From contig CM039463.1 of NCBI GenBank assembly GCA_022414725.1, positions 35,977,261 through 36,041,260 of the forward strand: a stretch of 64,000 nt of DNA, written 5' to 3'. Numbering within the stretch: position 1 is the first letter of the stretch; each line of letters opens with the position of its first letter. Under the pieces are notes generated by a model. The model saw only the letters and a program-made list of their open reading frames with translations, searched no databases and had not been told where the DNA came from. The DNA comes from Microglena sp. YARC. Taxonomy: Eukaryota; Chlorophyta; Chlorophyceae; Chlamydomonadales; Chlamydomonadaceae. The position numbers and the translations under genes are program-made. This document shows, piece by piece, positions 3,148 to 46,553 of the stretch.

Positions 3148-3592
3148 CACACACCTGAGATGAGACCTGACAGTACAGTGAAGTACACGGGCACACACCT
3201 GAGATGAAACCTGACAGTACAGTGATGTACACGGGCACACACCTGAGATGAGACCTGACAGTACAGTGAAGTACACGGGCACACACCTGAGATGAGACCT
3301 GACAGTACAGTGATGTACACGGGCACACACCTGAGATGAGACCTGACAGTACAGTGAAGTACACGGGCACACACCTGAGATGAGACCTGACAGTACAGTG
3401 ATGTACATGGGCACACACCTGAGATGAGACCTGACAGTGCAGTGAAGTACACGGGCACACACCTGAGATGAGACCTGACTGTACAGTGATGTACACGGGC
3501 ACACACCTGAGATGAGACCTGACAGTACAGTGATGTACACGGGCACACACCTGAGATGAGACCTGACAGTACAGTGATGTACGCAGGCGTAG
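3148..3592. repeat. 44-bp satellite, 10 copies
   Basis: The unit contains ACACACCTGAGATGAGACCT and GACAGTACAGTGATGTACAC. On the minus strand it follows the last EF-hand exon directly and contains two donor-like CAG|GT sites per unit. Its 132-bp triple period keeps all frames open. Confidence 0.9.
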
Positions 3593-6500
3593 GCACTTTC
3601 GGTCTACTTGCAGTCAAGAAGAAAAGGTCAGGATGATGGCGACAGTTCTGAAAGATCGTTGTCGCGTCGCCAGCTGTCCACAGGGTCCCTCGAAGCAGCT
3701 CCTCGTACTCTACTGTACCGCTCTTGTCTGTGTCCAACTGCTCCAGCAGGCGGTCAGCTTCTTCCAGCGAAACCGCTTTTCCTACAAGGGTGTGAAGTGT
3801 GGTGTGTGGTGTGTTGGGTGTTGGGTGTGGGGTTGGGTGTTGGGTGTGGGTGTTGGGTGTGGGTGTTGGGTGTGGGTGTTGGGTGTAGGGTGCGGTGTGT
3901 GTTGTGCGGAGTGTGGTGTGTGTGGGCAGTGTGTGGGCGGAGTGTGGCGTGTGGTGTGTGGTGTGTGGTGTGTGGTGTGTGTGGTGTGTTGGGTGTGTTG
4001 TGTGTTGTGTGTTGTGTGGGGTTGGGTGTTGGGTGTGGGTGTGGGGTGTGGGTGTGGGGTGTGGGGTGTGGGGTGTGGGGTGTGGGTGTGGATTGTGGTG
4101 TGTGGACGGTGTGTGGTGTGTGGTGTGTTGGGTGTGGATTGTGGGGTTGGGTGTAATCATTTATTCATCTATTTAATCATCTATTTATTAATTAATTAAT
4201 TTATTTATTTATTGATTCCTTTATTTATTTGTTTGAGTATCTCCATAGGTGCCTAAGTCAGACCCTGAGTGATACGGATGGATTGAGCCTATGCCCTCAA
4301 GTCCAAAAACAAAGATTTTTTGCTAATAAGTTGCCCAACCACATCAGTTCAACACGCAAATACTCGGATTTGGGTTTTCTCAAATGGTGGGGACCAGGTC
4401 AAGTGAAACATGCTAATTTGTTACTATGGGGTTCCCTAAGTCGATACGGGTTTTACGTAGGAAGTGATACGGAGCCTATCGCGACCGAAACGAGCCATTT
4501 AAAAAGAACACTGGGTAAAAATGTTGTGTAACGTCTTTCCCTACCAGTAGTTATTACGGAAGGTCTTGGAAGGCAGTACACAGGCAGTACAGTTGAGTAC
4601 GGACCCCCAAAACACTGATTATTTACATTTCGTGGGTGTCCTAAGTCTAGGTCAGAGTTGCACAGCCTATATTGAAACATTTTGGGCCTCGGTTTTGCAC
4701 TATCTCAAGATATAGCGTGCATAACAACTTCATCTTTTTTTTCGAAAATTCAAAATTCAAAATTCAAATATGTTTTGAAAATAAATTAAAAAAACATGTT
4801 TTTTATTTGTCTTCAAACATCCACATCTGAACTCAGTTTTTGATTTGGGGTAGATCATTGAAAACACACCCTAATCCTGAGCCATGGTGTGGTAGGCCAC
4901 AGGGAGGTGAAATCTTGAGATGTACAGCTATTTCAGTAGATTCCGAGGCCAAGGCTGAAGCGCAGCCTCCGACCTTGTAATAGGGGTTCGATAAGCCTTT
5001 CGTCCCGAGGTACCTTTCTTCGGAATAGCTCGCGCGGCCTCGTATCTGACGCGATCTGGATTTGTATCACTAATTATCGCACATCTGATGTACTGCCACC
5101 GGCCTGCCGAACAAGGCTGCTCGCGACCAGATGCGAACGCGCACGAAAAGTAGCTGCGCACATAGCTGACATCGTCGCGAACAATATGAGCCTGACAGAA
5201 TTCGATTCCGAGCAGTTTGGGCCATGTACGGCTCTGTATCACATTCTTGTATCGACTTAGGGCGTATCGACTTAGGCACCTATGGAGATATCGACTTAGG
5301 GCGTATCGACTTAGGCACCTATGGAGATATACCACTAGCCCACCTAGCACACTATTTTGTTTTCTTCATTTATTATTTATTTATGTATTTATTTATGTAT
5401 TTAAATATTTATTTATTTATGTATTTATTTATTTATTTAATTAAAAAAAAAAAAAAAAAAAATTTATGTATTTATACCACCAGCTCACCTAGCACGCCCG
5501 AGATGTAGAGCTGCAACTCTTTTGCAGTGATGTGTCCGTCCTTCTCTCCCTGGCCATCAATTTCTTGAAACAGATTTGTAAGGAACTTCTCTCGGTGGCG
5601 CACAAATACCTGTGACACAAGATGGCCCCATACAATCGTTTTACCGACGGGGGCCCTGAGTTCATGCTACCGTGATAATTTAATTCTACAATGACTATAG
5701 AATTAGCACAAGCACTGTGTTTGTGGACCACGGCACAGGGTACTACAAAACGTACTTCTTGGCGGAGCCCCACCTTCTGGGGGGCGGGAGCCCCCAGTGT
5801 TACCCATTTGTCCGTTCGTCCATCCATCCATCCATCCATCCATCCATCCATCCATCCATCCATCCATCCGTCTGACCGCAATGAAGCCCGACACGTCAGC
5901 CAACGGTCTCGTAACTAACTCGCTTCCGTTGCCACCTGTCGCTCCCTCGCGATCAATCTCCGCCATTTTTTATTGTCGCAGGCGACGCTGCATAGAACTT
6001 GTTTACATGACAGCACGTAAGCTTCTGGAGCACATCTACGTGAACCACGTTAAAAAAAGTATTTAGCCCGGAGACCCAAATTATTGTACCAGGCACTGCG
6101 TGCTACCTTGATAATTTAATTCAACAATGATTACAGAAGTAGCACAATAAATGTGAGTGTGGACTGCCACTCAGGCAAGGGTACTACAAAAGTACAAAAC
6201 GTACGTTTTTTGGCGGAGCCCCCCCTCCTGGGGGGCGGGAGCCCCTAGATTCCCGTTGTCCATTTGTGCGACCCACCGTCTGTCTGTCTGTCCGTCCGTC
6301 CGTCCGTCCGTCTGTCCGTCCGACCCACCGACCGACCAACCAACCGACAAACGAAGCCTGACACGCCAGCCAACTGTTTCATAACTAACTGGCTTTGGTC
6401 AGCTCCATCGTTGCCACCTATTGTTCCGTTGCCAACACACTCCGCCGATAGTCCGCATCGCTTGCGACGCTGCATAGGACTTGTAACATGACAGCACGTA

Positions 6501-9500
6501 CGTAGGTGTGTGTGTTATGGGGGGGGGGGGAGAGGTCAGGGCACGTAAGTAGGTGTGTGTGTTATGGGGTGGGGGGGGAGAGGTCAGGGTACGTAGGTGT
6601 GTGTGTGTGTGTGTGTGTTATGGGGGGGGGGGGGGAGAGGTCAGGGGTACGTAGGTGTGTGTGTGTGTTATGGGGGGGGGGGGGGGGGGGGGGGAGAGGT
6701 CAGGGTACGTAGGTGTGTGTGTGTGTGTGTTATGGAGGGGAGGGGGGGGGGGGGGGGGGTAGGTAGGTGTGTGTGCGTGTGTGTTATGGGGAGGGTAGGT
6801 AGGTCGCATGACAGCACGTAATCTTTTGGATCCCATCTACGTGAACCACGTTGGAAACGAGTTCTATGCAGCGTCGCCTGCGACGCTAAACAATGGCGGA
6901 GAGTGATCGCGAGGGTGCAACAGGTGGCAACGGAAGCGAGTTAGTTACGAGACCGTTGGCTGACGTGCCGGGCTTCATCACGGTCAGACGGATGGACGGA
7001 CAAATGGGTAACACTGTGGGCTCCGCCAAAAAAGCATTCAGCCTGAAGACCCTAATTTACATGCTAGGCACTGCTAGGGCGTAACTTGTAACGATCTTGT
7101 CCATGACCTCACCAGGGATCAGCCCGTCCACGTTCATCTGCCTCTCCACTATCGGGTAGGTAATCCTCAGTGCAACATGAAGGCCCACACTGACCCACAT
7201 CTACATGTTTCTCGTAACCCCAAATGGCAAAATATAGTACCCTGCAAGCCAGGGCACCTTGAAGCAGACACTGAAGCCAGCTAGTTCCATGATCACTGGC
7301 TGACTCGACAGGCTTCGTCTCAGTCGCATTAACAAACAAGCAAACAAACAAACAAACAAACAAACAAACAAAACCCCAAAACAATGATGCAGGTGCAGAG
7401 CTGTCCTCAATATTTACTGCACACATGAGCACTACACACAAGGTGGCAGTCTCCACCAATACCAACAACGCACCTGGAACTCACAGCTTCACACATACAC
7501 CCACATGTGCACACACACGCAACCAACGCCACCAACACCACCAACAGCAACGACCCACCCACCTGGAACTCATCGAAAGAAATATGTTCGTCGCCATTCG
7601 TGTCGACAGCAGTCACAAGCTCAACACACACAAGGTGGCTGTCTCCATCAATACCAACAACCCAACTAGGACTCACAGCTTCACACACACACACACATGT
7701 GCAAGCACACTCCACCAACAGCAACAACAGGAACAACCCACCCACCTGGAACTCATCAAACGAAATGTGTTTGTCGCCATTAGTGTCGACAGCAGGAATG
7801 AGCTCAACACACACAAGGTGGCTGTCTCCACCAATACCAACAATCCACCTGCGACTCACAGCTTCACACACACATCCACATTTGCAAGCACACTCCACCA
7901 AAACCACCAACAGCAACAACCTGGAACTGATCGAACAAAATGTGTCCGTCGCCATTCGTGTCGGCAGCAGTCATAAGCACTACACACACAAGGTGGCTGT
8001 TTCCATCAACTCCAGCAAGCCACCTGACACTCACAGCTTCACACACACACACACACACATGTGCACGCACATGCCACCAACACCACCAACAGCAACAACA
8101 GTAACAACCCACCCATTTGGAACTCATCAAAGAAGATGTGTTCGTCGCCATTAGTGTCAGCAGCAGTTGCGTGCTCATCACACACAAGGTGGCTGTCTTC
8201 ACCAAGACCAACAACTGACCTCGGACCCACACCCACACCCACACCCACATGCGCACGCACACGCCACCAACACCACCAACAGCAACAACCCACCCACGAA
8301 ATGTGTTCGTCGCCATTAGTGTAGGCAGATGTCAGGAGCTCAACACACACAAGGTGGCTGTTTCCACCAATACCAACAACTCACACCCACATCCACATGT
8401 GCACGCACTAGCACACGCCACCACCACCACCACCACCAACAGCAACAACCCACCCACCTGGAACTCATTGAACGAAATGTGTTCGTCCCCATTAATGTCA
8501 GCAGCAGTCACAAGTTCAACACACACAAGGTAGCCGTTTTCACCAACGTCAACAGCGCACCTGCGACTCACAGCTTCACACACACACCCACATGTGCATG
8601 CACACACCACCAACTGCAACAACAGCAACAACCCACCCACCTGGAACTCTTTGAACGAAATGTGTTCGTCGCCATTCGTATCGGCAGCAGTCACAAGCTC
8701 AACACACACAAGGTGGTTGTCTCCACCAATACCAACAACGCACCTGCCACTCACAGCTTCACACATACACCCACATGCGCACGCACACGCCACCAACGCC
8801 ACCAACAGCAACAACCCTCCCACCTGGACCTCATCAAATGAAATGTGCTCGTCACCATTATTGTCAGCAGCAGACATGAGTTATGCCCACAAGGTGTCAG
8901 ACTACTCCCAACAACTCACACCCACATCTACATGTGCACGCACACGCCACCAACAGCAACAACAGAAACAACACACCCACCTGGAACTCATTGAACGAAA
9001 TATGTTGAGCGCCATTAGTGTGGGCAGCAGTGACGAGCTCAACACACACAAAATGGCTGTCTCCACCATCTCCAACAAGGCACCTGAAACTCACAGCTCC
9101 AAACCCACATGTGTACCCACACGCCACCAACACCAGCAACAGCAACAACCCACCCAACTGGAACTCATCGAACGAAATGTGTTCGTCGCCATTTGTGTCA
9201 GCAGCAGGCATGAGTTCTACGCACAAGGTGTCAGTCTTCACTAATCCCAACAACTCACACCCACACCCACATGTGCACGCACTAGCACACGCCACCAACA
9301 CCACCAATAGAAACAACCCACCCACCTGGAACTCATCGAACGAAATGTGTTGGTCGCCATTAGTGTCGGCAGCAGACATGAGTTCTACGCACAAGGTGTC
9401 GGTCTTCACCAATCCCAGACGCCCCTCCCTGGCAGCAGCATGCAACTCAGCCAGAGAAATCTGCCCGCTACAGTCTGTGTCCAGTCTGGCGAACATGTGC

Positions 9501-9532
9501 TTGATCTCGGAGTCAGACAGTTGGAAGGTCAT
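3563..9532 (-). CDS. Four-EF-hand calcium-binding protein, 3 exons, 3' end uncertain
   Basis: Calcium-sensor type protein; partner and location unknown. Exon 1 (9532-9326, 69 codons) begins at an ATG and holds two EF-hands. Loop 1 is [12 protein letters not shown] (residues 18-29) and loop 2 is [12 protein letters not shown] (56-67), both with canonical acidic positions 1, 3, 5 and 12. The exon ends CAG|GTGGG in phase 0. Exon 2 (5609-5489, acceptor CACAG, donor CTAG|GTGAG) encodes a third hand whose loop is two residues longer than usual. It ends in phase 1, which fits exon 3 (from 3781, acceptor TTGTAG) and its hand [12 protein letters not shown]. Two EF-hand pairs joined by [15 protein letters not shown] resemble the regulatory half of calcium-regulated mitochondrial carriers, but no carrier domain is visible. 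The 3' end is unclear: the frame stays open through a 44-bp satellite to about 3120, with possible donors at 3562 and 3550. Intron 1 (9325-5610) is filled with copies of the exon 1 end. Confidence 0.7.
3790..4225. repeat. TG-rich simple repeat and ATTT tract
   Basis: Irregular GGTGTG/GGGTGT repeats to about 4155 lie in the last intron of the EF-hand gene, followed by (ATTT)n. Confidence 0.9.
4226..4930. other. Unique-looking sequence, no gene seen
   Basis: The segment begins with a CCATAGGTGCCTAAGTC block that is inverted relative to 5258-5335. It is then mainly AT-rich with no exon I can support. It lies inside intron 2 of the EF-hand gene. Confidence 0.4.
4935..5252 (+). other. Open segment with protein-like composition
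   Basis: After TTTCAG near 4935 a plus-strand frame stays open about 105 codons to a TAG, including [20 protein letters not shown]. The minus strand is open over much of the same stretch, so I cannot decide which strand, if either, is coding. No family is recognised. It ends where the CGACTTAGG repeat begins. Confidence 0.2.
5242..5485. repeat. ATCGACTTAGG repeats and (ATTT)n/(A)n
   Basis: Two copies of a 39-bp unit with GGGCGTATCGACTTAGGCAC are followed by an ATTTATTT tract and an A run of about 19. Confidence 0.8.
5760..6002 (-). repeat. Dispersed hairpin element (family A)
   Basis: Complete copy: CTATGCAGCGTCGC start, ATGGCGGAGA, GTTAGTTACGAGACCGTTGG, GTCAGACGG, and a GGGGGCTCCGCC end. 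Here the middle is expanded by (CCAT)n. It belongs to a larger block repeated next door at 6080-6484. Confidence 0.8.
6211..6484 (-). repeat. Dispersed hairpin element (family A)
   Basis: Same element as at 5760, with the middle expanded as (CCGT)n and a perfect GCGTCGC/GCGATGC-type stem near one end. Confidence 0.8.
6500..6805. repeat. GTGT/poly-G minisatellite
   Basis: Five units of GTAGGTGTGTGTGT-TATGG-(G)n-AGAGGTCAGGG, with G runs up to about 22. Confidence 0.9.
6861..7033 (+). repeat. Dispersed hairpin element (family A)
   Basis: Short plus-strand copy with the GCGTCGCCTGCGACGC stem. The right end lacks the GGAGCC hairpin. Confidence 0.8.
7330..7375. repeat. (AAAC)n microsatellite
   Basis: About ten AAAC repeats, downstream (on the minus strand) of the EF-hand copies. 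Confidence 0.9.
7425..9325 (-). repeat. Tandem array of duplicated EF-hand exon ends in intron 1
   Basis: About ten further copies of the 3' half of exon 1 follow it at roughly 180-190 bp spacing. Each joins about 100 bp of exon-like sequence ([19 protein letters not shown] type) to about 85 bp of GTTGTTG/GTGTG-rich intron. Donor sides lie near 9156, 8982, 8827, 8639, 8459, 8297, 8119, 7921, 7742 and 7560. Several are damaged. The copy at 9156 has TT instead of GT, the one at 8982 has His and Ala in calcium positions, the one at 8297 lost the exon end, and the one at 8119 lost the donor GT. Others (8639, 8459, 7742, 7560) keep a full loop and CAG|GTGGG. Decayed duplicates are more likely than used exons, since the duplicated part lacks the first EF-hand and an obvious phase-0 acceptor. 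Confidence 0.85.
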
Positions 9533-9929
9533 GGTTTCGGCTGTGGTCTCTGTTCTGGTTTCGAAAGGGTGGGGCGTGGTTTCAGGGTCCTGAGAGAGGT
9601 CAGGGGGGAATGGGTGTGTGTGGAGATGAGTGGGTGGGTGGTTAGGTGAATGTATGTGGGTGGGTGGTTACATGCATGTAGGTGGATGCATGGACCGATT
9701 CATGGGTGAGAGTGTGTGTGTGTATGTGAACCCCTCCAACCAACCCCTCATCCAACCCCATCCAGCCTCATCCAATCCCCCATCCACCCATCTCCCATCT
9801 CCCTACTCATCCATCCCAAACCTACTCATGGCTCCATTCTACCCCATCTCTTGCTACCCTACACTATCTTACCAACCTTACGTTAAGTTGAGCCCTAGTT
9901 TCGGTTATAAACCCAAGGTGGGGCGAGGT

Positions 9930-10111
9930 GGGGTCTTAAGGCACCTATCCCCCGCTGTTTACTGTTTCTGGTGCTGCCGACGCTGCTGGTGCTGTTACTA
10001 CTGCTGGTGCTGGAGCTGGTGCTGCAGATACTAGAGGTACGGCATCCGCAGACGATGCGCTTTACAAAGCGTATCGCAGTGTAACCGGACTTGGATTCGA
10101 CGTTGGACCGA
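9930..10111 (+). other. Possible C-terminal coding remnant
   Basis: Between a TAA near 9937 and a TAA near 10109 one plus-strand frame is open. It contains an Ala/Gly/Thr-rich stretch (GAADAAGAVTTAGAGAGAA) followed by DDALYKAYRSVTGLGFDVGP. The second half looks like ordinary protein. The overlapping minus-strand frame is also open, so coding is uncertain. Confidence 0.2.
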
Positions 10112-10498
10112 GAGTATAATATAAGAATAAGAAACGAGGCAAAGGTGGAAGAAGGGATGGGTGGGTGTGAGGTCGAGCGGGCGTAGGAGCCCGCGGGAGA
10201 GTGGGAGTTTGAGGTTTTTGGTGACAGGGGGCGCAACAGTGGAATATTCCGGCCCTGTTTAACCGAGCGCGCTCATGCTTGGCATATCAGTCTGTTTTTT
10301 AGATTTGGAGGCAGTAGGGGCGATAGCAGGAATCTACGAGCAGCTGTAGGAGATGGGTTTGATCAGCTGGCCTGATGATGCGAGTTAGGTATGAAGGAAA
10401 CCGATTCTGCGTCAGCATGACAGCTACGTGGTTGTACAGGTCAGTACAACGTCAGCGATAGTAACGTTATCGCGAGGGGTGGCCTCCGCGAAGGGGCT

Positions 10499-10558
10499 TA
10501 TATAAAAGCGACTCGCGAGCTACCGGTACACGTGCCCCGGTTTATCTTGCGCAAGATA
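10499..10558 (+). promoter_or_regulatory. TATA-box-like element and 16-bp palindrome
   Basis: TATATAAAAG (10499-10508) stands alone in GC-richer sequence, followed at +44 by the perfect palindrome TATCTTGCGCAAGATA (10543-10558). The spacing would suit a start near 10530. No open frame of note follows before the dispersed repeat at 10623, so it may belong to a non-coding transcript, a lost gene or a mobile element. Confidence 0.3.
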
Positions 10559-10622
10559 ACTTGGTGCGTGTATAATGCACACACAGTACCGCAACCCTAA
10601 ATATTTAATATATATAAATATC

Positions 10623-10739
10623 TGTATTTGTACAGTCCAGGGGTCACCAAATAGGCTAACGGGACTTGCCCAACCTGAATTTATTAAATGATAAGAAACA
10701 GGAATGGCAGTTAAAAAAACAAGCACTAGTGAACTGAAC
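10623..10739 (+). repeat. Dispersed element (family B), 3' part lost
   Basis: Carries CAGTCCAGGGGT, GGGACTTGCCCAACC and AGCACTAGTGAACTGAAC. It is cut by the CAGGGT-ended element that starts at 10740. Confidence 0.75.
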
Positions 10740-10845
10740 CAGGGTTGTCCAGGACGCTGGGTCCTCCATCGCAGAAGCTACGTCGAAGGGTCCGTTGCGT
10801 CGCAGACACAGCTTCAGTAGGTCGGTTGCATCTCACTTCAATACC
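10740..10845 (+). mobile_element. hAT-like MITE, left part only
   Basis: Starts CAGGGTTGTCCAGGACGC and matches 36285 for about 100 bp. The right half is replaced by the 10-bp satellite. Confidence 0.6.
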
Positions 10846-11115
10846 ATGTGTCTCACTGCGTCTCACTGCGTCCCACTGCTTCTCACTGCATCACACTGCG
10901 TCCCACTGCGTCTCACTGCGTCCCACTGCGTCTCACTGCCTCCCACTGCCTCCCACTGCGTCTCACTGCGTCTCACTGCGTCCCACTGTGTCCCACTGCG
11001 TCTCACTGCGTCCCACTGCGTCCCACTACGTCCCACTGCGTCCCACTGCGTCTCACTGCGTCCCACTGCGTCCCACCGCGTCCCACCGCGTCCCACTGCG
11101 TCGCACTGCGTCACA
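10840..11115. repeat. 10-bp satellite (CCCACTGCGT/CTCACTGCGT)
   Basis: About 27 units. All three plus frames stay open because the triple period is 30 bp, so the resulting frames are not genes. Confidence 0.95.
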
Positions 11116-11910
11116 GGCCCTGCCAGAGTGTCTATGAGCCACTTAGTTTGAAGTTAACTAGTTGTATGCTCTTCAGTCCCTATTATGTTGCTGTATCATT
11201 TTTGTAATTCTTGGTGGTTTCGGGGCTTACGGCCCCTTCAGACCCCGAATTGAGCATGCGGTGTATGAGCAACTTCCTGGAAGGCCCATTAGTTTTTCCT
11301 ACTGGGCCCAAAGTTGAAATATGCCTATCAATATATTCCGAGCAGAGGAATTACCGTACGTGCCTTAAGTATTGGCAAGATTGAGTATTGGCAAATGTCA
11401 TTCCCCCCCTAAAAGTGGGTCTCAGAAATGCATGGCATAACTAACTTGGCCTAAAGGGGTCTATGGATTTGACTGTCTCAAGCTCGGACCTGAAATCCAG
11501 TTGGCAAAGGGTCTTATGTTATTTTTATATTTCCTTGTGACATGTTCACCAAGTAGTCTGCCCAAGCTTGCTGTAAAACCATGGAACAATTCAAATCAGG
11601 AGCATTAAACTTGCTAGGGCTTAGTAGCTAGACCGGTACATGGCTCCAGCCAGCCAATACTTATAATAAGGGACGTACGACATATGACATGAATATTTGC
11701 TATTTATTGCGCATCTTTTATTTTTCGGAGTACTTCATTTAGGGACAGAGGAAGGAAGGGGTGGGGGTGGGGGTGGGAGGAGGGGGGGTCTTTTTGTTGA
11801 TAACTTTTTACTTAGGTATCTGCAGGTATCCAAATACAATTTTGATACCACCCATCACATAATTAGGCCTTGGTCTATTGTCACCGCTTAGGACCTCGTG
11901 GAATAAGTAC

Positions 11911-12261
11911 CAGGGTACTTCAAACGGGCCCCATGGGTTGAGTCCTGGGGCGCACCCTAATTCGGTAGGTTGCGTCCAGGGACGCACCCGATTCGGTAGG
12001 TTGCGTCTTGGGTACCAATCTACGCCACAGGCTGCGTGCTACACGCAACAGAACCCGTAGCCCACGGCAATGGAGTGGTGGTGGGTCAATCAACTGATGG
12101 GTGAGACGCAACCAACATCCTGAACCTGCGTCTGCGACGCAACCAACATACTGAACCTGCGTCCGGGACGCGACGGACCCTCCCATGTTGCGTCTGCGAC
12201 GCAACGGACCCTCCCCATGTTGCGTCCTGCGTCGCAGGACGCTGCGTCCTGCACTACCCTG
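11911..12261. mobile_element. hAT-like MITE with perfect 8-bp target duplication
   Basis: Ends CAGGGTACTTC...GCACTACCCTG. Flanked on both sides by ATAAGTAC (11903-11910 and 12262-12269). The interior is built of GTTGCGTC/GACGCAAC modules, several forming hairpins. It encodes no transposase. Confidence 0.85.
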
Positions 12262-12269
12262 ATAAGTAC

Positions 12270-13015
12270 CTGGATGGGCTCGTACATGTTTTTGACATAG
12301 CCCTCCCTTCTGGGGGGCGGGAGCCCCCAGCCTGGCATCCTGGCAGGGTTACCCGGGGGGGTTAAGCTAGGGCCAGATCTGGTTACACGTTTTGGCATGT
12401 CTCTAAGCCGGTGCGCAGCCAACAGTAACACGATTATTTTTTATAGGCCTTCAGTCGACAGCTTCGTGGTGAAGTTCCGCACAAAATATTTGTGTTACCT
12501 TCGGCTGCACACCACGAAAACATGGCCTCGACATGCCCCAAATAGACGAAAATCGGGCAAAAAGGTTACACTTTCCCACTTTTTTTCGAGCCAAAACTTG
12601 AAGCTCGACTTCAAAACACCCTTAGCCATGATGCAAAACATTTTTGAAAAAGACAAACCTTCCCGTTCTGGGTTTCAGATAGGATTTGGCAAAGATCATA
12701 TAATTTGACCCAAAATGTGCCCTAAATGGCACATTTCTTATGTTTTAAGAGTCTCATCCAAGTTGGCAACATAATTCAAGTTGCAGATCACTAGATTGCA
12801 CCCTCCCAGAAGATTCTACCCAGGTGAATTTGGTGTAGAAGTTGAGGAGGCCACCCATTTGACATACACAAGCACCATGCCAGCCATTTCCAGCCCTTAC
12901 AGGCTGGCATACCGACCCGCAGCAGTCGGAACGAGAGGCAGGATCACGCAGTTTCTGACAATTCAACTTCAGGCGATATGATAGATGGCACAATTTGATG
13001 GCGATTGATTGATTC
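12270..13015. other. Mostly unique sequence, no gene supported
   Basis: A GGGGGGCGGGAGCCCCC scrap of family A lies at 12312-12330. The remainder has no splice-bounded frame I trust. Confidence 0.4.
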
Positions 13016-13035
13016 CCTGGCTTGATCTGTGCTCT

Positions 13036-13215
13036 GTTGAGTTCGCGGCAGTCACTCACGTACGATCGTGTACCCTCGGAAGTTTCGAGCAACTTTCGCC
13101 ACAGACCACGGCAGGATGCAAAAATACGATGTAAACTCCGGAAATTGCTTTGCGTTTCCTTTTGGTTTTCACGGAGACATCGGAACTGGAAGAACCAGTT
13201 TCGGAGCTTACCCCC
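13036..13215 (-). repeat. Dispersed repeat, inverted copy of 51262-51468
   Basis: The reverse complement matches 51262-51468 through GTGACTGCCGC, TTCCGAGGGTACA, GGTCTGTGGCG and AACTGGT. It abuts a family A element in both orientation and position. Confidence 0.7.
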
Positions 13216-34065: not shown

Positions 34066-34085
34066 TGACCTATGCGTGTATTTCG

Positions 34086-36250: not shown

Positions 36251-36284
36251 TAAATTGTGCTTTGGCGTATAACACATCTACAAC

Positions 36285-36488
36285 CAGGGTTGTTCAGGAC
36301 GCTACGTCCTCCATCGCAGGACGCAAAGTAGGGAGGGTCTGTTGCGTCGCGGACGCAGCTTCAGTGGGTTGGTTGCGTCGCATGACACAGGCTATTGGTC
36401 GGTTGCGGGTTGATTACGTCTCAGGACGCAGGCTATGCCATTGGTTGCGTCTCAGGCAGAATAGCTGGGGTCCACCTGAAGTACCCTG
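36285..36488. mobile_element. hAT-like MITE
   Basis: CAGGGTTGTTCAGGACGC at the left, CACCTGAAGTACCCTG at the right; flanks TCTACAAC and TCAACAAC (7 of 8). Interior of GTTGCGTC/GGACGCA modules like 11911. Confidence 0.85.
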
Positions 36489-36878
36489 TCAACAACCCAT
36501 GAGTTGATAAGTGGAATAGGTAAGTGGAATAATCCCGGAAGGTCGCATCCCCCCAGTGTTTTAACTATTCTCATTTTGCGTTAAAAGATTGGCGCGTTGA
36601 CCGCTGCGAGTATCTCACCACTCTTGAAGTGTATAAGCTGATAGGTTATGGGCCCATCACGCTAACCACTGCGTATGGGTTGACCCAGAATAGAGAAAGG
36701 GAGTTGCCTAGAAGCTGTCAAGTACTCAAGTATAGCCCTGAGCCCCTCAAAAGAACCTAAGTAAGAAGTCAAGCTTTACTGGCTCCGCCACATCACATAT
36801 ACAGATATACTCCTTTCAGCAGGCTAGGGCGAGTGCAGGAATACCCACTCTTTGAGTCGAAAACCTCCTTGTAAAAGA

Positions 36879-37087
36879 AGTCCTATGCAGCGTCGCAAGC
36901 GACGCGGAAAATTGACGGAGTGTGTTGGCAACGGAACGAAAGGTGGCAACGATGGAGCTAACCGAAGCGAGTTAGTTATGCGACCGTTGCCTGAAGTGTC
37001 AGGCTTCAAGTTTTTTCCGGTCGGACAAACGGACAAATGGGTAAACGTGGGAGCTCCCGCCCCTTTGAAGAGGGGGCTCCCCCCAAA
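36879..37087 (+). repeat. Dispersed hairpin element (family A)
   Basis: Complete copy with a perfect GCGTCGCAAGCGACGC stem. Confidence 0.85.
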
Positions 37088-37129
37088 ACATCCAGATATC
37101 GGAGAGTTGTTTGGATGGGTGGGTCTCTG

Positions 37130-37300
37130 TACAGCAAACCCTGAATCCCAGCCCTAGCTGGCGCAGCGCCTCTCAGCGCCATTTTTTCGCTTTAGCCCCC
37201 TCTGGACCCCCCAGGGGTCCCGGGGCTGAAGCCCCAAGTCCCCCCCGTGTCTCTCTCCGCCGTCTGTCCGCTATCCATCTATCCATCTGTCCGTCTGTCC
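37130..37300. repeat. GC-rich repeat, inverted copy at 38045-38165
   Basis: Shares CCCTAGCTGGCGCAGCGCCT and the GGGGGTCC/GGGGACC blocks with 38045-38165 in opposite orientation. The second copy ends 140 bp before the BolA start codon. Confidence 0.7.
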
Positions 37301-38303
37301 GACAGCTGTCCAGGCGTTTGAACGATTCCGACCACCTTCGCACCCACAATTTTTGCTCATAGTTGAAGTGAGCATGACTAGAGTTATCAGCATCGCAGCG
37401 GCCAAAATCCTTCGCAAAAGTTGTTCAATGTTTGTAGCTCTATTCGGCTACGAGTAGCTACTTTCTCCACTACTTCCGAATCTCCCTGCCGGTGACTGCT
37501 AAAGCGATTTTCCGTGTCGCTTGCGACACGCTCTTAGAACTTGTCCTTCTCTCGGTCGTGATGTCTCCTACTGCCCCCTACACAAATTCCCTCTCGGTAT
37601 CCCAATTCGTGCTGTTCACGGATCCCGTGGTATGGACGGGACCGCCTGCTTTAATGCTGCAGCAAGCCTTCGGAAGGCAGATGAAGGCTTGGTAGCTCAG
37701 TGCGATGGCCCATGCAGGGTTGGCCAACAGCTCTGGAATACAGTGGTGTTGGCCACTTGGCCCTGCTGCACGGCAGAGTGGAAGGCCTAGACTCAGAACA
37801 TCATCTATCGCAGCCAGAACAGCATCTCTCACGGCACAGTGGAAGGCCCGGATCCAGAACAGCATCTCTCGCAGCCAGAACAGCACCTCCACAGGTATTC
37901 CAAGCATGGGCAAGGGAGAGATCGTCACACTAGTACACGACCAATGTGCACGCTCGTCGCAGAACTCATTCCCTCGCTAGTTCAGCTGTCTGCGAAAAGT
38001 TCAGCTGCCTGCGATAACTAGTAAAGCTGTCTACGACCACGTTCAAATCTCTCTCGGCGTCGAGAGGCGCTGCGCCAGCTAGGGTTGTGGTTCAGGGTTT
38101 GGATCTTCCTGCGTACGGCGATACGGGGGGCCTCGAGCGGTCCCCTGCGGACCCCCCGTGCGGTACACATCGTAGTAGACGATGCCTGCCAGACAATCCT
38201 CCTCCTCCTACACAACCCCAACCCACACCGCATAAACGTCGCCCCTCTGCAAACCCATCTAAACTACTCGCTTTACTCGCTCCATTAGAAGCAAAGCAGA
38301 AAT

Positions 38304-38659
38304 ATGTCAGCCGTCCTCCTGAACAAATCGATGCGCTTGAGCGCGCCTAGGGCTGTGAGTGCGGTGGGCAGCAGGTCGATGCCGATGCGCGCTCGCGTTG
38401 CTGCCCCCCCTGCCTCCAACAGGCGGGACCGAGTTATTCGCAGAATCCAGGTTGGTGCGGAGAGGGAGGGGAGCGTCGAGAGAGGGTGGCGATGGCTGGG
38501 TGGTGTGTGTGTGTGTGTGTGTAGGGTGGGGGTGTGGGGTGGGGTGTAAGGGGGGGGCAGGGGGAAGAAAGAGAGTGTGTGCCAATAGGGTAGGTGTGGG
38601 GGCAGGAAGATTTTAGGAAGAGTAGGAGATCATGTAAGTCCAGGGTGTGGTGTGTGTGT

Positions 38660-38702
<43 letters not shown>

Positions 38703-41700
38703 CGGGGGGGAGGGGGGGGGGCTATAGGAGAGCAGGAGTGTGGGGGGGGGGGAGTGGAGTTGGGGACGGTGCACAGTGAATCAGGGTTGTGCGTGTGTAA
38801 TGGGGGGAGGGGTGGGGATTGGGTGGGGTAATATGTTTTGTTGGGGTGGGTGGAGTTGGGCACGGTGAGCCTTGTAGTAGGGTTGTGTGTATGTAATAGG
38901 GTGGAATTGGGTGGGGGAGTGTGGTTGGTGGGGTGGGGAGGGGAGATGAATATGTAGCACAGGAAATTTACAGAAGGTCTCTGGTACTTTTTCTGCACCC
39001 TAAATAATATTGTAGAATTTGAATTACCACTGTAGCACAAACCCAGGGCCCACGTCGGTTAAACGATTGTTTGGGGCTCATTTTATCAGTGCTTTTTCTT
39101 TTTATGCCCTTCCTATACGGTTGGGCAAGTCCCTTAAGCCTATTTGGCCTACCCCTGGACTGTAACATACATACACATACCAACATTCCCTACGGCACTC
39201 TTCCCACCCACAATGCATTTTTGTAAGCCAAATAAAAGAGTGCCGTAGACCCCCCGAGTTTGCTGTGTAGTGAGCTAGTTGGTGTTTGTGTGTGTTTAGT
39301 GTGTTGTGGGTGTTAGTGTGTGTGTGTGTGTTTGTGTGTGTTTAGTGTTAGATTTTGTGTGGTGTGTGTGTGGGGGGGTGGGATAGGAGGGGGACCAGGT
39401 GTGTGTGTGTTTCGGTGGGGAGGGCCACCAACCTGGTGGGTGAGGGAGGTGGAGGGGGAGGAATGATGTGTGTGTGTGTGTGTGTTTTGGGGGGGGGGGG
39501 GGGGGGGGGGGGGGGGAGGGGTGAGTGGGGAGTGGGATAAAAGGGGTGAAAGTGAAAGGGGGGAGGAGAGGGGAAAAAGGGTGAGGGGTGGGTGGAAGGG
39601 CAGCGGTGGCGCATGCTGTTTTTAACTCTGACTAGTGGGGTGATCTGGACCACTTTTGTTCGTGATCTGAACCACAAGGGTGATCTGGACCTTTTTATTT
39701 TGTGATCTGGACCGCTTTGTTTTTTGTGCAATGCGTCACCATTCCATCGCTGCATGGCTTCGCATGGGTCGGGTTAAAATACCCCCCCCAGGCTCTGCGC
39801 TTCACACACCTCAGGGTTTGGCCTTCTAGATGGTGGTGGTGTGGTGGGGGGGGGGCTGCGCGTCGCACCGTGTCGCACAGCGGTCGCACCGAGTCGCTCA
39901 TTTTGCGACGCATCGCACACAAAAAAATGTGATCTGGTCCCCTGCATGTAGTAATGTATGAAGAACACGAGGGAACCCTGTCCCCCTATTCTCTCCCTCC
40001 TGTCCAAGTGGGTACCCCACCCCCCTATTCTTTCCCTCCTGTCCGAGTGGGTACCCGCCCCCCCTATTCTTTCCCTCCTGTCCGAGTGGGTACCCGCGCC
40101 CCGCTATTCTTTCCCTCCTGTCCAAGTGGGTACCCCGCCCCCTATTCTCTCTCTCCTGTCCAAGTGGGGTACCCCGCCCCCTATTCTCTCCCTCCTGTCC
40201 AAGTGGGTACCCTGCCCCCTATTCTCTCCTCCTGTCCAAGTGGGTACCCCGCCCCCCCTATTCTTTCCCTCCTGTCCAAGTGGGTACCCCGCCCCCCTAT
40301 TCTTTCCCTCCTGTCCAAGTGGGTACCGCCCCCTATTCTCTCCCTCATGTCCAAGTGGGTACCCCGCCCCCTAATCTCTCCTCATGTCCAAATGGGTACC
40401 TGCCCCCCTATTCTCTCCCTCCTGTCCAAGTGGGTACCCCGCCCCCTATTCTCTCCCTCCTGTCCAAGTGGGTACCCGCCCACCTATTCTTTCCCTCCTG
40501 TCCAAGTGGGTACCGCCCCCCCTATTCTCTCCCTCATGTCCAAGTGGGTACCCCGCCCCCCCTATTCTCTCCCTCCTGTCCAAGTGGGTACCCCCCCCCC
40601 CCCCACCCCCCTAATCTCTCCCTCCTGTCCAAGTGGGTACCCCGCCCCTAATATCTCCTCCGGTCACCCCACCTACCCTCCCCCTCACACACACACCGCA
40701 CATCAGATCCCCCCCCCCCCCCCCCCCCCATACACAGACACACAGACACACGCTACACAACACACATCAGACCCCCCACCCCACCCCACCCAAAACACAC
40801 ACACACGTTCACACACTTTCACACACTCCCCCCCCCCTCTCCTGCCAGGTTGGTGGCCCACCCCCCAGCGGAGGCCATGGCCACCAGCACGAAGCCGTCC
40901 AAGCCAACCAAATGACCTTGGAGCTGATCAGCAGCATGACTGGCAAGATCAAGACTGCCCTGGAGACTACACACACACACGTACCCTCTCTCTCCCACAC
41001 ACAAGCCCTTACCCCCCAAACATTCACACACACTCTCCCCCCAACTCCCCACCAGGTTAGCGGCCCTCCCCGCAGTGGAGGCCATGGCCACCAGCATGAA
41101 TCAGTCCTAGCCAACTATATAACAATATTCCTCTACTTCCCTCCCCCCCATCCTTACCCTCACACACACTCCCGACCCTTTTTTCTAGGTTGGTGGCCCT
41201 CCCCCCAGTAGAGGCCATGGCCACCAGCAGCATGACATGCAAGATCAAGACTGCCCTGGAGACTAGGGAGGTTATCCTACACCCCCCACACCCACCCACC
41301 CACACTCTCACCTTCCCCTTCCCCTTCCCCTTCCCCCCCCCCCTCACCCACCAGGTTGGCCGGCCCTCCCCCCAGTGGAGGCCATGGCCACCAGCTCAAA
41401 GCCGTCCAAGCCAACTATATAACAATATTCCCTCTACTTCCTCTCCCCCCCATCCTTTCCCTCACATGAGGACTGATTCATGCTGGTGGCCCTCCCCCCA
41501 GTGGAGGCCATGGCCACCAGCATGAATCAGTCCAAGCCAACTATTTAACAATATTCCTCTACTTCCCCTCCCCCATCCTTACCCCCTCACACACTCCAAC
41601 CCTTTTTTCTAGGTTGGTAGCCCTCCCCCAGTGGAGGCCATAGCCACCAGCATGAATCAGTCCAAGCCAACCAAGTGACTTCGGAGCTGATCAGCAGCAT

Positions 41701-44700
41701 GACTGGCCCCCACCCTCCCCACCCACCCACCTCACCTCTTTTCCCCACTCCAAACTCTAAACCCTCTTCCTCCACCCCTCCACACACCCTTCCCCCTCTC
41801 ACCCGCCAGGTCCCCCTCCCCACCCCCACCCCACCCCCACCCCCTCACCTATTTTCCCCCACTCCAAACACTTAACCCTCTTCCCTCCCATCCCTCCACA
41901 CCCTTTCCCCCTCTCACCCACAAGTTCGGCGGCCCTCCCCCCCTCCTCCCCTCCCCCTCCCCCTTTTTCTTCTCTCCACACTCTGAACCCTTTCCCCCTC
42001 TCACACAACAGGTTGGTGGCCCTCCCCCCAGCGGAGGACATGGCCACCAGCACGAAGCTGTTCAAGCCAACCAAATGACCTTGGAGCTGATCAGCAGCAT
42101 GACAGGCAAGATCAAGGCTGCCCTAGAGACCGAGGAGGTAATCATCAGTGATGCCTATGGAGATGCCCAGCATGTGTCCATTGATGTGGTCTCTGCCTTG
42201 TTCGAGGGCAAGAACTCTATGACACGCCAAAGAATGGTGTACAAGGTGGGTGGTGCAAGTATGGGTGGTGCAAGTATGGGTTTAGTTTTGTTCGAGGGCA
42301 AGAACTCTGTGACACAGTAACACACCAAAGAATGATGTACAAGGTGGGTGGTGCAAGTATGGGTGGTGCAAGTATGGGTTTAGTTTTGTTCGAGGGCAAG
42401 AACTCTGTGACACAGTAACACACCAAAGAATGATGTACAAGGTGGGTCGTGCAAGTATGGGTGGTGCTAGTTTGGGTTTAGTTTTGTTCGAGGGCAAGAA
42501 CTCTATGACACGCCAAAGAATGGTGGACAAGGTGGGTGGTGCAAGTATGGGTTTAGTTTTGTTCGAGGGCAAGAACTCTGTGACACACCAAAGAATGATG
42601 TACAAGGTGGGTGGTGCAAGTATGTGTGGTGTTATTATAACCACAATGTTATGATCTTACGGTTACCAACTTGTAAAAGGAGGAGATGCCCAGCATGTGT
42701 CCATTGATGTTGTGTTCGCCCTGTTTGAGGGACAGAACTCTATGACACGCCAAAGAATGGTGTACAAGGTGGGTGGTGCAAGTATGGGTGGGTTACTATA
42801 ACCAGAATGTTATTATCTTACTTTTTACCCCCCCCCCCCCACCCCACCCCACCCCCCCCACACACACACCCAAAAAGGTAACACCTGGATGGGCGTTGTT
42901 AAGGGGACGCTCCCGTACGCCGCAGCTGGGGAAAGTCACCATAGATACTTGTTCCTTGTTGCTTTTTGCCAACTTATGTACAGATGGGTACCCAGGGGGG
43001 TACTTTTTACCAACTTCTAGAAGTAGGGGATGCCCAGCATGTGTCCAATGATGTTGAGGAAGCCTTGTTTCTAAGGGAAAGAGAAAGGGAAGACTTTCTT
43101 TCCCGTCCTCATGAGGGAAAGAAGTCTATGACTGGCCAAAGAATGGTGTACAGGGTGGTTGGGTGGGTGGTGGGTGGGTGGTGGATACGTCATGGTTTTA
43201 GTAGTAGAGGTTTATGAAAGTAGTAGTAGAGGTTTATAAAAGTAGTGGTAGAGGTTTATAATAATAGTTGTAGAGGTTTATAAAAAGTAGTAGTAGAGGT
43301 TTATAAAAGTAGTAGTAGAGGTTTATAAAAAAGCAGTAGTAGAGGGTTATAAAAGTCGTAGTAGAGGTTTATAAAAAAGTAGTAGTAGAGGTTTATAAAA
43401 CAAGTAGTAGTAGAGTAGTTTTTTATAAAAGTAGTAGTAGAGGTTTATAAAAAAAGTAGTAGTAGAGGTTATAAAAGTAGTAGTAGAGGTTTAAAAGAGG
43501 TTTTTATAAAAAAAGTAGTAGTAGAGGTTTATAAAAAGTAGTAGTAGAGGTTTATAAAAGTAAGTAGTAGTAGTGTTTATAAAAAAGTAGTAGAGGTTTA
43601 TAAAAAGTAGTAGTAGAGGTTTATAAAAGTAGTAGTAGTAGAGTAGTTTATAAAAGTAGTAGTAGAGGTTTATAAAAAAGTAGTAGTAGAGGTTTATAAA
43701 AAGTAGTAGTCAGGGTTTAAAAAAAGTAGTAGTAGTAGAGGTTTATAAAAAAGTAGTAGTAGAGGTTTTATAAAAGTAGTAGTAGAGGTTTATAAAAAAG
43801 TAGTAGTAGAGGTTTATAAAAGTAGTAGTAGAGGTTTATAAAAAAAGTAGTAGTAGAGGTTTATAAAAGTAGTAGTAGAGGTTTATAAAAGTAGTAGTAG
43901 AGGTTTATAAAAAAGTAGTAGTAGAGGTTTATAAAAAAGTAGTAGTAGAGGTTTATAAAAAGTAGTAGTAGAGGTTTATAAAAGTAGTAGTAGAGGTTTA
44001 TAAAAAAGTAGTAGTAGAGGTTTTATAAAAAGTAGTAGTAGAGGTTTATAAAAAATTAAGTAGTAGTAGAGGTTTATAAAAGTAGTAGTAGAGGTTTATA
44101 AAAAAGTAGTAGTAGAGGTTTATAAAAGTAGTAGTAGAGGTTTATAAAAAAGTAGTAGTAGAGGTTTATAAAAGTAGTAGTAGAGGTTTATAAAAAGTAG
44201 TAGTAGAGGTTTATAAAGTAGTAGTAGAGGTTTATAAAAAAGTAGTAGTAGAGGTTTACGTTGAAAAAAGTAGTAGTAGAGGTTTATAAAGTAGTAGTAG
44301 AGGTTTATAAAAGTAGTAGTAGAGGTTTATAAAAAGTAGTAGTAGAGGTTATAAAAAAGTAGTAGTAGTTTATAAAAGTAGAGTATTTATAAAGTGTAGT
44401 AGAGGTTTATAAAGTATAGTAGAGGTTTATAAAGTAGTAGTAGACGAGGTCATAGTAGAGTTTATAAAAAAAGTAGTAGTAGAGGTTTATATAGTAGTAG
44501 TAGAGGTTTATAAAAGTAGTAGTAGAGGTTTATAAAGTAGGAGTAGAGGTTTATAAAAGTGTAGAGGTTTATAAAAGTAGTAGAGGTTTTTAGTAGAGGT
44601 TTATAAAAGTAGTAGTAGAGGTTTATAAAAATAGTTGTAGAGGTTTATAAAAAGTTGTAGTAGAGGTTTATAAAAGTAGTAGTAGAGGTTTATAAAAGAG

Positions 44701-46553
44701 TAGTAGAGGTTTATAAAAAGTCGTAGTAGAGGTTTATAAAAGTAGTAGTAGAGGTTTATAAAAAAGGAGTAGGAGAGGTTTATAAAAGTAGTAGTAGAGG
44801 TTTATAAAAGTAGTAGTAGAGGTTTATAAAAGTAGTAGTAGAGGTTTATAAAAGTAGTAGTAGAGGTTTATAAAAAAAATGTATTGTATGAATGTTATAT
44901 TATATTATATTGTAGTGGTGTATGTAGGTGTGGGATATGATCATTATAACATTACAAACGGGTTTATTGCTGTATTACATAATCGTTACGATAATTATAA
45001 TTGTAAATTATATGGTGTCCCCCATAGATCTGTTTGGAAATTGGAATTTCATACGCCCTGCCACGGTGCGTGAGGTTGGAAGGGAACCTCCCGTCCGCAT
45101 GCACCGGACATACTGGAGACTGGATATTATGTTAGGTTTTTGGTTTCGCAGACAGCAACTGCGTCTGAGCCTGGACTTCCACGCGACAGCACGGAAGGAA
45201 GATCTCTACCTCTTCCAAGGCGGCAGGTCTGAAATTCAGGAGCCTGTCAAGGGCTTAAACCACAGCTTTATTTTCAGCTACGAGCAGCAGCTTCTAGGCA
45301 GCTCCCCAGGCTCTCTCTTCATTCCAAACCTTAAGCAACATCATGCACCTAGAAGCTGATATCATCAGCTTTCCATTGCTCCTGGAATCTTTGAATTTGG
45401 TAGCGAGGCAGTCTTAGGGAGCAACCTTAAAGCTGCTGCTGTTAGCTGAGAAGAAATGGCGTAGGTGCAGCAGGTCTTAGGGAGCTGCCTAGAAGCTGCT
45501 GCTGGTAGGCGAAAAGAAAAGGCGTAGGTGCAGCAAGGCTTAGGGAGCTGCCTGGAAGCTGCTGCTGGTAGCCGAAAAGAAAAGGCATAGGTGCAGCAGG
45601 CAAGCATATAGGCAAGCCCCTTGTGGAGGTGCCTAGAAGCTACTGCTGGTAGCCGAAAACAAAAAGAGTTTGTGCAGCAAGAAAGCATACTGGCAAGCCC
45701 CTTTAAGAACTGCCTCGAAGCTGCTGCTGGTAGCTGAAAATAAAAAGTGTATGTGCAGCAAGCAAGCATACAGGCAAGCCCATTGAGTGTAGTTTGCTTT
45801 TCCATGGATTGAAGCACACATGCCTTACTCATGAAAATATGCCAAATGTCTGCACTAAACCTCAGTTTTTTTGCAGTATCAGAAAATGTAGATTGCTACC
45901 CCATGGATTGAAGCACACATACATTTATCAGGGAAACATGCCAAATGTGTGTACAAGCCATCTTAGAGGAGCTGCAGAGCTCTGTGGGTGGCTGGGTGAC
46001 TGGGTACAACAAGTATATATGTAAGTGTAAACAACAAACGTTTCCAACATCATATGCAAGTTGTGCACAGGCCATTTGGGATGAGCTGCAGAGCGCCGTG
46101 TGTGGAGATGCGTGGGTGGCTGGGCACAACATGTATGTTTGTATGCACACACAAAAAACTTTTACAACTAAATATGCAATTTGTGCACAGGCCATTTGGG
46201 AGGAGCTGCATAGTGCCGTCCATGCTGTGGATGCTATGTCCACCAAGACGCATTTTAAATTAATTGTATTTTGATTCTTTATTTTATGTATGTATGCATG
46301 TATGTATGCATGTATGTATGTGCGTAAAAACGTTTCCAACAACATATGCAATTTGTGCACAGGCCATCTGGAGGAGCTGCAGAGCACCGTGTGGGTGGGT
46401 GATTGGCTGGCTGGGTACAACAAGTATGTACGTACATACAAAAAACGTATCAACTAATATGCAATTTGTGCAGGCATCTGGGAGGAGCTGCAGAGTGCCG
46501 TCCATGCTGTGGATGCTATGTCCACCAAGACGCCAGAGGAAGCTGTCAAGTAG
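38304..46553 (+). CDS. BOLA: Plastid-targeted BolA-family protein, 3 exons
   Basis: BolA proteins partner monothiol glutaredoxins in iron-sulphur cluster handling. Exon 1 (38304-38450, 49 codons, CAG|GTTGGT) is rich in Ser, Ala, Arg and Met and lacks acids near the start, as in a plastid transit peptide. Exon 2 (42012-42245, 78 codons, acceptor AACAG, donor AAG|GTGGG) joins in phase 0. It holds the fold: helix LISSMTGKIKAALET, strand VIISDAYGDAQHVSIDVVS, then FEGKNSMTRQRMVYK. The last exon supplies AIWEELQSAVHAVDAMSTK and TPEEAVK-stop, about 153 residues in all. The usual RHR is RQR (Gln about 122). The last exon with the correct C-terminus (46474-46553, TAG) is out of frame by a small deletion at its start. 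The copy at 46191 is in frame but lacks TPEEAVK. Assembly error or real damage cannot be told apart here. Confidence 0.8.
38500..38960. repeat. GT/poly-G tract with a run of about 43 G
   Basis: 38660-38702 is uninterrupted G, within a GGGTGTGT-rich stretch in intron 1 of the BolA gene. Confidence 0.95.
39007..39172 (-). repeat. Dispersed element (family B), complete
   Basis: About 165 bp with all blocks: ACAGTCCAGGGGTAGGCC, GGGACTTGCCCAACCG, AGCACTGATAAAATGAG, AAACAATCGTTTAACCGACG and a GTGCTACAGTGGTAATTC end. Confidence 0.85.
39290..39610. repeat. GTGT/poly-G tract
   Basis: GTGTGT repeats with a G run of about 28 near 39490, inside BolA intron 1. Confidence 0.9.
39975..40660. repeat. About 39-bp satellite, about 17 copies
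   Basis: CCTCCTGTCCAAGTGGGTAC with CCGCCCCCTATTCT, 36-42 bp units, in BolA intron 1. The long plus frame across it is a repeat artefact. Confidence 0.95.
40849..41960 (+). repeat. Tandem copies of the 5' half of BolA exon 2
   Basis: At least six partial copies of the VGGPPPSGGHGHQ exon start lie upstream of the real exon 2, near 40849, 41056, 41190, 41355, 41488 and 41613; two more decayed acceptors lie near 41810 and 41930. Most keep an AG acceptor behind a C-rich tract. The first runs 40 codons, to ALET, before entering (CA)n. Others have internal deletions, such as 41190, which jumps from GGHGHQ to the GKIKTALET region. The spacers are C-rich and contain CACTC and CCTTTT tracts. Confidence 0.85.
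42279..43155 (+). repeat. Tandem copies of the 3' half of BolA exon 2
   Basis: Four short copies of FEGKNSxTxQRMxYK plus donor (AAG|GTGGGT) lie at about 42290-42345, 42389-42440, 42488-42531 and 42563-42605, each followed by GGTGCAAGTATGGG. Longer copies at 42686-42769 (QHVSIDVVFALFEGQNSMT) and 43028-43155 carry more of the exon. The last has an inserted Arg/Glu-rich stretch and is strongly diverged. Confidence 0.85.
43195..44875. repeat. About 23-bp AT-rich satellite, about 70 copies
   Basis: Unit GTAGTAGTAGAGGTTTATAA plus a variable A run, in BolA intron 2. Length differences come almost only from the A run. Confidence 0.95.
45280..45790. repeat. GAAGCTGCTGCTGGTAGC repeats
   Basis: Units of about 61 bp and then about 88 bp sharing GCTGCTGGTAGCCGAAAA. 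The first block resembles the 28071 satellite. They lie in BolA intron 2. Confidence 0.8.
45950..46470 (+). repeat. Tandem copies of the BolA last exon
   Basis: Copies begin after AG at about 45958, 46071, 46191 and 46363, preceding the one at 46474. They encode versions of AIWEELQSAV. Copies at 45958, 46071 and 46363 then switch to a VAGHNMY/AGYNKY-like sequence. The copy at 46191 continues correctly to HAVDAMSTKT before ending HFK. Each is preceded by AATATGCAATTTGTGCACAG, which serves as a plausible acceptor. Confidence 0.8.

Follow-up and report, generated by a model that had tools for sequence, protein, structure and literature searches.

Tandem copies of exon edges in the introns of genes from the green alga Microglena sp. 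YARC

Exon copies in the three genes of the window

The window analyzed here is a stretch of 64,000 nucleotides from Microglena sp. YARC (assembly GCA_022414725.1, contig CM039463.1, positions 35,977,261 to 36,041,260 of the forward strand). It contains three genes with 11 modelled exons: gene 1, encoding an EF-hand protein, on the minus strand, and gene 2 and a BolA gene (gene 3) on the plus strand. The introns of these genes hold tandem copies of the edges of their own exons. Each modelled exon was searched against the window with blastn (E ≤ 1e-3 and a minimum of 12 exon bases), and local copies were found for 8 of the 11 exons and in all three genes, with 80 direct matches versus a single inverted one. 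All of the direct copies are located within 3 kb of their exon, and most of them show 72–99% identity to it. The first-pass annotation, made from the sequence alone, had described copies of exons or exon halves with their splice sites in all three genes, and this description is borne out. The copying does not extend to every exon, as three of the 11 have no copies.

Most copies cross a splice site, such that the repeated unit joins an exon edge to intron sequence, and the start points within the exons recur. The donor GT is retained in 40 of the 48 copies that span a donor edge, at about the same rate as the adjacent bases. The acceptor AG, with 23 of 25, is retained somewhat more often than most of the bases beside it. 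The window has 246 tandem repeats in total (overlapping entries are counted), and their units are arranged head to tail in the introns, as in intronic minisatellite arrays.

The product of gene 1 matches the Pfam EF-hand pair. The functional copy of exon 1 (9326–9532, minus strand; located by the EF-hand pair and the edge sequence) has its donor at 9326, and 11 copies of the exon end and the start of the intron are found at 7419–9249 (minus strand; blastn), the number estimated earlier. The unit is about 183 bp in length, and the copies mostly begin near exon base 116. These half-exon copies keep a largely open reading frame across much of the array. For exon 2 (5489–5609, minus strand; gene model), blastn found no local copies in the window. 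The functional copy of exon 3 (3563–3781, minus strand; Pfam and edge sequence) is accompanied by 14 copies of its final 20–26 bp, the donor and the intron start (2331–3500, minus strand; blastn), and a 44-bp array falls within this region.

Gene 2 has no Pfam match above the cut-off. Its model is identical to the EukProt protein P0121 over exons 1–4, except for six residues where exon 2 begins; these were missing from the model and are supported by the DNA sequence. P0121 lacks exon 5. The two diverge after exon 4, where P0121 goes on with residues matching an exon 4 decoy (24835–25201) in a different frame. This ending of P0121 is apparently a gene-prediction error due to the arrays.

No local copies of gene 2 exon 1 (13789–14046, plus strand; P0121 match) were found in the window with blastn, while copies flank each of the other exons, as had been noted. 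All of these features are on the plus strand, and the copies were located with blastn. Upstream of exon 2 there are three copies of the intron end and exon start (16597–16956), all with the acceptor AG, and a 101-bp array adjoins these acceptor copies and runs into them, in agreement with the gradation reported earlier. The functional copy of exon 2 (17185–17313; QPLKVSGTKRG...EMVETLQ; P0121 and edge sequence) is followed by 16 copies of its end (17412–20304), in units of about 125–200 bp, 15 of which include the donor position and the intron start. Copies of this exon recurrently begin at exon base 103 or at bases 56–61. Seven copies of the start of exon 3 (21743–23351), six with the acceptor region, precede its functional copy (23447–23545; P0121 and edge sequence). 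A 47-bp array had been described as grading into an exon 3 copy; it abuts the copy at 21743, and the gradation itself is not clear.

The functional copy of gene 2 exon 4 is only 43 bp long (24704–24746; P0121); its donor is the reading of our model, and P0121 reads on through it. The three copies downstream (24835–25201) contain the entire exon and both flanks. They retain the acceptor AG, and in all three the donor GT is changed to GC, which may reflect one single mutation. Exon 5, with the stop codon (29728–29900), is predicted from the reading frame alone and is absent from P0121. Four copies of the intron end and the first 17 bp of this exon are located upstream (28999–29562), and four copies of later parts of the exon, three of them with the 3′ flank, are located downstream (30046–30576).

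Two further features of gene 2 were noted. The GC donor of exon 3 (23540–23556) and the acceptor of exon 5 (29722–29741) have 11 bases in common, both reading CAG and then, past the junction, GCAAGTCC. Of the four copies of the exon 5 acceptor, three keep the AG and hence also resemble a GC donor. In addition, a dispersed repeat of about 200–250 bp (GCAGCGTCGC ... GGGGGCTCCGCC) was recognized by eye at 25700–25915, 28530–28720 and 26080–26320, and on the opposite strand near 6.0 and 6.5 kb.

Gene 3 encodes a plastid-type BolA4, and its product can be aligned over its full length with 11 relatives (46–53% identity), six of which are named as green algae. All of its features are on the plus strand. 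Exon 1 (38304–38450; relatives' alignment and edge sequence) has no local copies by blastn in the window. The sole complete copy of exon 2 that was found (42012–42245; relatives' alignment and edge sequence) is positioned between eight copies derived from its first half (40833–41942; blastn), six of them with the acceptor AG, and seven derived from its second half (42288–43162; blastn), six of them with the donor GT. Copies of exon 2 recurrently begin at exon base 187 or 148. Three copies of the intron end and the start of the last exon (46031–46390; blastn) precede the last exon itself, which carries the stop codon (46474–46553; relatives' alignment and a predicted junction). The copies of both halves of exon 2 and of the last exon had all been recognized in the first-pass annotation.

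Joining 42245 to 46474 puts the BolA frame off by one, and the last exon is read here in the frame of the relatives. This exon has one base fewer after the AG than the neighboring copies, and a shifted donor would be needed to bring it into frame. The alternative copy near 46190 would join in frame, with a different tail, and either of the two may be the one that is spliced.

Pfam recognized nothing in ten long open frames that lie elsewhere in the window, outside the three genes. The region 51500–56500 consists of a C-rich array of about 5 kb with extreme GC skew and has no recognized gene.

Exon copies in other genes of the genome

The genome (568 Mb, 2390 contigs) was sampled for further genes. 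A search for the chaperonin family (Pfam PF00118) gave 72 exon matches and 11 clusters with at least four of them. Eight of these clusters, on five contigs and with 43 exons, were selected by their coordinates before the DNA was viewed; the clusters at C2:79.8, C2:85.2 and C1:96.5 Mb and the places with a single match were left out, and 6 of the 7 matches of the gene at L029 entered the analysis. Each exon was also searched against one random non-self locus as a control.

Local copies were found in seven of the eight chaperonin genes and for 25 of the 43 exons, with 100 direct matches and one inverted. Their identity to the exon is 69–94% (mean 83%). At the control loci, only one of the 43 exons was matched (three hits). 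With inverted matches and matches at unrelated loci both near zero, a chance origin of the copies is unlikely. Among three further BolA genes, two (L004 and L005) have copies of exon ends downstream of the exons, and a further chaperonin piece (L033) has three exon-end copies and arrays of its own. The copying is thus found at many genes beyond the window. No exon copies were found for the chaperonin gene at L027 or the BolA gene at L006, so the proposal that every visible gene is affected holds for the window and not for the genome as a whole.

L033 belongs to a set of three pieces from small contigs with chaperonin matches (with L032, from contig C2301, and L034, from C93), chosen to compare copy numbers between haplotypes; none of them matches the loci already sampled. 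L032 and L034 have chaperonin-like exons in which no local repeats were found, and no exon copies were found in L032. The two may derive from another organism in the culture or the assembly. However, L033 likewise matches none of the sampled loci, and apart from this only the lower GC content of L032 points to a foreign origin, so the two were not used as a control.

Sixteen 10-kb stretches at round coordinates were also examined. Their coverage by local direct repeats ranges from 0 to 89% (mean 39%), and that by inverted repeats from 0 to 8%. The two stretches with the lowest coverage encode a retroelement-type protease and a helicase. Among twenty open frames from the random loci, Pfam recognized these two (L009 and L010, respectively), a RING finger (L017) and an acyltransferase piece (L012), with three further matches below the cut-off.

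Geometry and mutation pattern of the copies

The positions of the copies relative to their exons were compared for 96 chaperonin copies (plus strand only, with copies that touch the exon removed). All 43 copies of an exon start are located upstream of the exon, and all 44 copies of an exon end are located downstream. The remaining nine are eight interior copies and one that spans the whole match. Such strict polarity (87/87) is expected when a stretch is duplicated in tandem and one of its breakpoints falls in the exon, the other in the intron. The copies are produced in place by tandem duplication.

The polarity also bears on two other explanations. Mobile elements or template switching could have brought exon pieces into the introns, as introner-like or transposed copies, and dispersed repeats are indeed present in the window (inverted coverage of 6.5%). 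Introner elements, however, are near-identical and dispersed over many genes, whereas the copies here are local, on the same strand and polar, and an unrelated locus matched just one of the 43 exons. On their locality and the random-locus control, such an origin is rejected as extremely improbable.

The second explanation is an assembly artefact, in which repeated read segments were misplaced beside the true exons. The window does contain one gap of 1000 N, and such arrays are hard to assemble, so the copy numbers may be wrong. On the other hand, the divergence of the copies from the exon is mostly between several percent and 30%, the pattern of change is orderly and neutral-like, and the copies are strictly polar. 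Moreover, P0121 ends in residues of the exon 4 decoy, and the assembly from which it was derived (maybe not this one) therefore contains that copy. An artefact is rejected on the divergence and the polarity, and we give it very little credence.

The codon positions at which the exons and their copies have changed are different. At sites where the exon differs from copies that agree with each other, the differences at codon positions 1, 2 and 3 are 2, 3 and 13 in the window and 4, 5 and 23 in the chaperonin genes. The changes private to one copy number 50, 37 and 50 in the window and 81, 65 and 95 in the chaperonin genes. The contrast between the two classes, pooled, is significant (p = 1e-5). 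The exon has drifted mainly at third positions while changes in the copies show little codon bias, and most copies thus look like neutral decoys, which from the sequence comparison is likely what they are.

These data can be compared with what would be expected if the copies were functional alternative exons, either mutually exclusive or additional, that serve protein diversity. Mutually exclusive exon arrays of the Dscam type consist of tandem exon copies within one gene. In agreement with such a function, the splice dinucleotides are kept in most of the window copies, and the EF-hand copies are largely open in frame and show an excess of third-position changes. In contrast to Dscam-type arrays, however, a copy here is nearly always half an exon with a single splice site, and most of the copies are drifting neutrally: 87 of the 96 chaperonin copies carry one exon edge only, a single one is a whole match, and the only exon copied whole in the window is gene 2 exon 4, in the three copies that have lost the donor GT. 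The private changes are almost even over the codon positions. The EF-hand copies are often gapped relative to the exon, and three of the ten that reach the donor have lost the GT. The codon-position pattern argues against functional exon arrays, with the exception of the EF-hand array, and we regard this explanation as very unlikely.

In the EF-hand array, the private changes are distributed as 9, 11 and 21 over the three codon positions (p = 0.05), unlike those in the other window arrays (41, 26 and 29, pooled). Either the EF-hand copies separated from the exon on different occasions, or a number of them were, or still are, translated.

Distribution of the repeats and the origin of the copies

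The introns of the tested genes are largely built of local, same-strand tandem duplications. Overall, local repeats cover 0.82 of the intron sequence in the window and 0.54 in the chaperonin genes. In the window, this coverage is 0.72 at 1–50 bp from an exon and 0.78–0.89 farther away; in the chaperonin introns, it is 0.54, 0.53, 0.53, 0.50, 0.60, 0.50 and 0.67 in successive bins out to 6 kb. Within the chaperonin exons, coverage drops from 0.34 near the end of the match to 0 beyond 150 bp. Many of the window arrays contain no exon sequence (among the 150 of the 246 repeats listed). The share of intron sequence that is derived from exons is 0.120 in the window and 0.113 in the chaperonin genes (11–12%, about a ninth). 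With a stricter criterion for the copies, 10 of the 16 intron-facing exon edges in the window and 26 of the 70 in the chaperonin genes have copies, for a total of 36 of 86 edges in 11 genes.

A simulation was carried out in which unseeded duplications of 20–250 bp land anywhere in a six-exon gene, for four starting intron lengths. Those that fall within an exon or include one entirely are removed. For the four lengths, the simulated intron coverage is 0.97, 0.83, 0.61 and 0.29, the fraction of edges with copies is 0.77, 0.58, 0.36 and 0.16, and the exon-derived share is 0.364, 0.148, 0.063 and 0.020. The simulated and observed edge shares agree. With the flat coverage and an unseeded simulation close to the observations, exon edges appear to be mainly bystanders of a process that spans the introns and is filtered by selection.

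In the first-pass annotation, the copies had been ascribed to local, recurrent slippage or unequal exchange, seeded by exon edges. Of this proposal, the local, recurrent tandem duplication at many genes stands. The seeding, in which features of the junction (for example R-loops or stalled co-transcriptional complexes) would initiate duplication and the edges would be preferred, is not supported. It would account for the copies at 36 of 86 edges and for the exon-derived ninth of the introns, for a chaperonin exon-derived share about twice that of the unseeded simulation at equal coverage, and for the greater abundance of arrays in introns than in three apparently intergenic stretches of the window. 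However, the coverage profile away from the exon is flat, many arrays are free of exon sequence, and the edge shares are near those of the unseeded model; conservation of the exon may also keep exon copies recognizable for longer. Seeding as the main cause is rejected on the coverage profile and the simulation, and we consider it unlikely, with a mild edge preference being possible.

The explanation that we favor, and hold to be probable, is a recurrent local tandem duplication without seeding, in which the surviving units are those that straddle one splice site and the half-exon copies are likely neutral decoys.

Several observations weigh against this explanation. First, the chaperonin exon-derived share (0.113) is about twice the simulated value of about 0.05 at a coverage of 0.54; the excess could be due to a slower loss of copies that resemble exons, or to a slight preference for edges. 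Second, the pooled private changes of the copies (131, 102 and 145) are imperfectly even over the codon positions (p = 0.02). Together with the third-position excess in the EF-hand array, this unevenness may mean that some copies were once functional or parted from the exon on separate occasions. Third, the ends of the chaperonin exons are the ends of profile matches, a few of which contain stops, so some of them may extend into a copy or the intron.

The last of these points concerns the sequence between genes. Local repeats cover only 8%, 18.5% and 6% of three stretches read as intergenic (9800–13700, 31000–38200 and 46700–51400), as compared to 82% of the introns, which a plain genome-wide slippage does not predict. 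Other stretches with no recognized gene have 97%, 82% and 46% local repeats (0–2, 51.5–56.5 and 58.6–64 kb, respectively). When the exon lengths were placed at random in the three low stretches, the mean covered was 206 bp (standard deviation 146, maximum 894, 2000 trials), versus 773 bp observed. As the maximum exceeds the observed value, single placements can surpass the observed exon coverage.

Proposed mechanism

Under unseeded duplication, units ranging from tens of bases to a few hundred would be duplicated all along the introns, and edges would not be visibly preferred, as is seen in the tested genes. Units that enlarge the interior of an exon, and so alter the protein, or that add a whole exon would be selected against. 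Those straddling one edge would survive because the exon is left intact, and the rarity of whole-exon copies is in agreement with this.

The spliceosome would then choose the intact exon by exon definition. Decoys with perfect signals would be harmless, passed over in splicing as each has no partner splice site. The gene 2 exon 4 copies, the only whole-exon array in the window, lack the donor GT, in line with exon definition passing over decoys. The copies would drift as non-coding DNA, the pattern seen in most arrays, while the functional exon is under purifying selection. The net outcome would be growth of the intron, and the cause may be replication slippage or unequal exchange.

A more far-reaching scenario is that duplication is coupled to introns or to transcription and keeps copying exon edges. 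Introns would then be growing fossils of exons, new introns would be born in the same way, and splicing would be nearly indifferent to decoys. We put this forward tentatively, as rather less likely than not to be correct. In a comparison of intron junctions, a match of 10 bp was found in one of eight introns (BolA intron 1), and a match of 11 bp in one of 56 non-cognate pairs. The junctions give no proof of intron birth by duplication, as a non-cognate pair reaches 11 bp, versus 10 bp.

Relation to known systems and significance

Earlier reports (PMC3443670, PMC4974935, PMC2891723) describe tandem genomic duplication as the source of single new introns, in ATP2A1, a potato RdRp, fission yeasts and Drosophila. 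The copies here resemble those duplications in that a segment with a splice or proto-splice site is duplicated in place, a piece of exon becomes intronic, and the protein is unchanged. In contrast to the single events and new introns described there, the copies in Microglena form arrays of up to 16, in existing introns, and at 36 of 86 edges in 11 genes.

There are similarities with intronic minisatellites and tandem-repeat expansion of introns as well, in the tandem, same-strand units, the copy-number arrays and the mostly non-coding nature of the sequence. Unlike in minisatellites, exon sequence of the same gene can be recognized in about one-ninth of the intron here, and in much of this sequence the splice dinucleotides are intact. 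A genome-wide extreme of tandem genomic duplication, rather than a new kind of element, is the best explanation of the phenomenon. In the open-licence literature, no description was found of a genome in which most genes carry copies of exon edges in their introns.

How introns lengthen, and how the spliceosome chooses among look-alike sites, are long-standing questions that have usually been approached with single cases or minigenes. This one genome offers many natural experiments: in housekeeping genes, dozens of donors and acceptors are near-perfect decoys that lie next to sites known to function. Gene predictors may mistake such decoys for exons, as the P0121 model of gene 2 appears to have done. 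If the low intergenic coverage holds true with a confirmed annotation, the process would be coupled to introns or to transcription, a reading of greater novelty.

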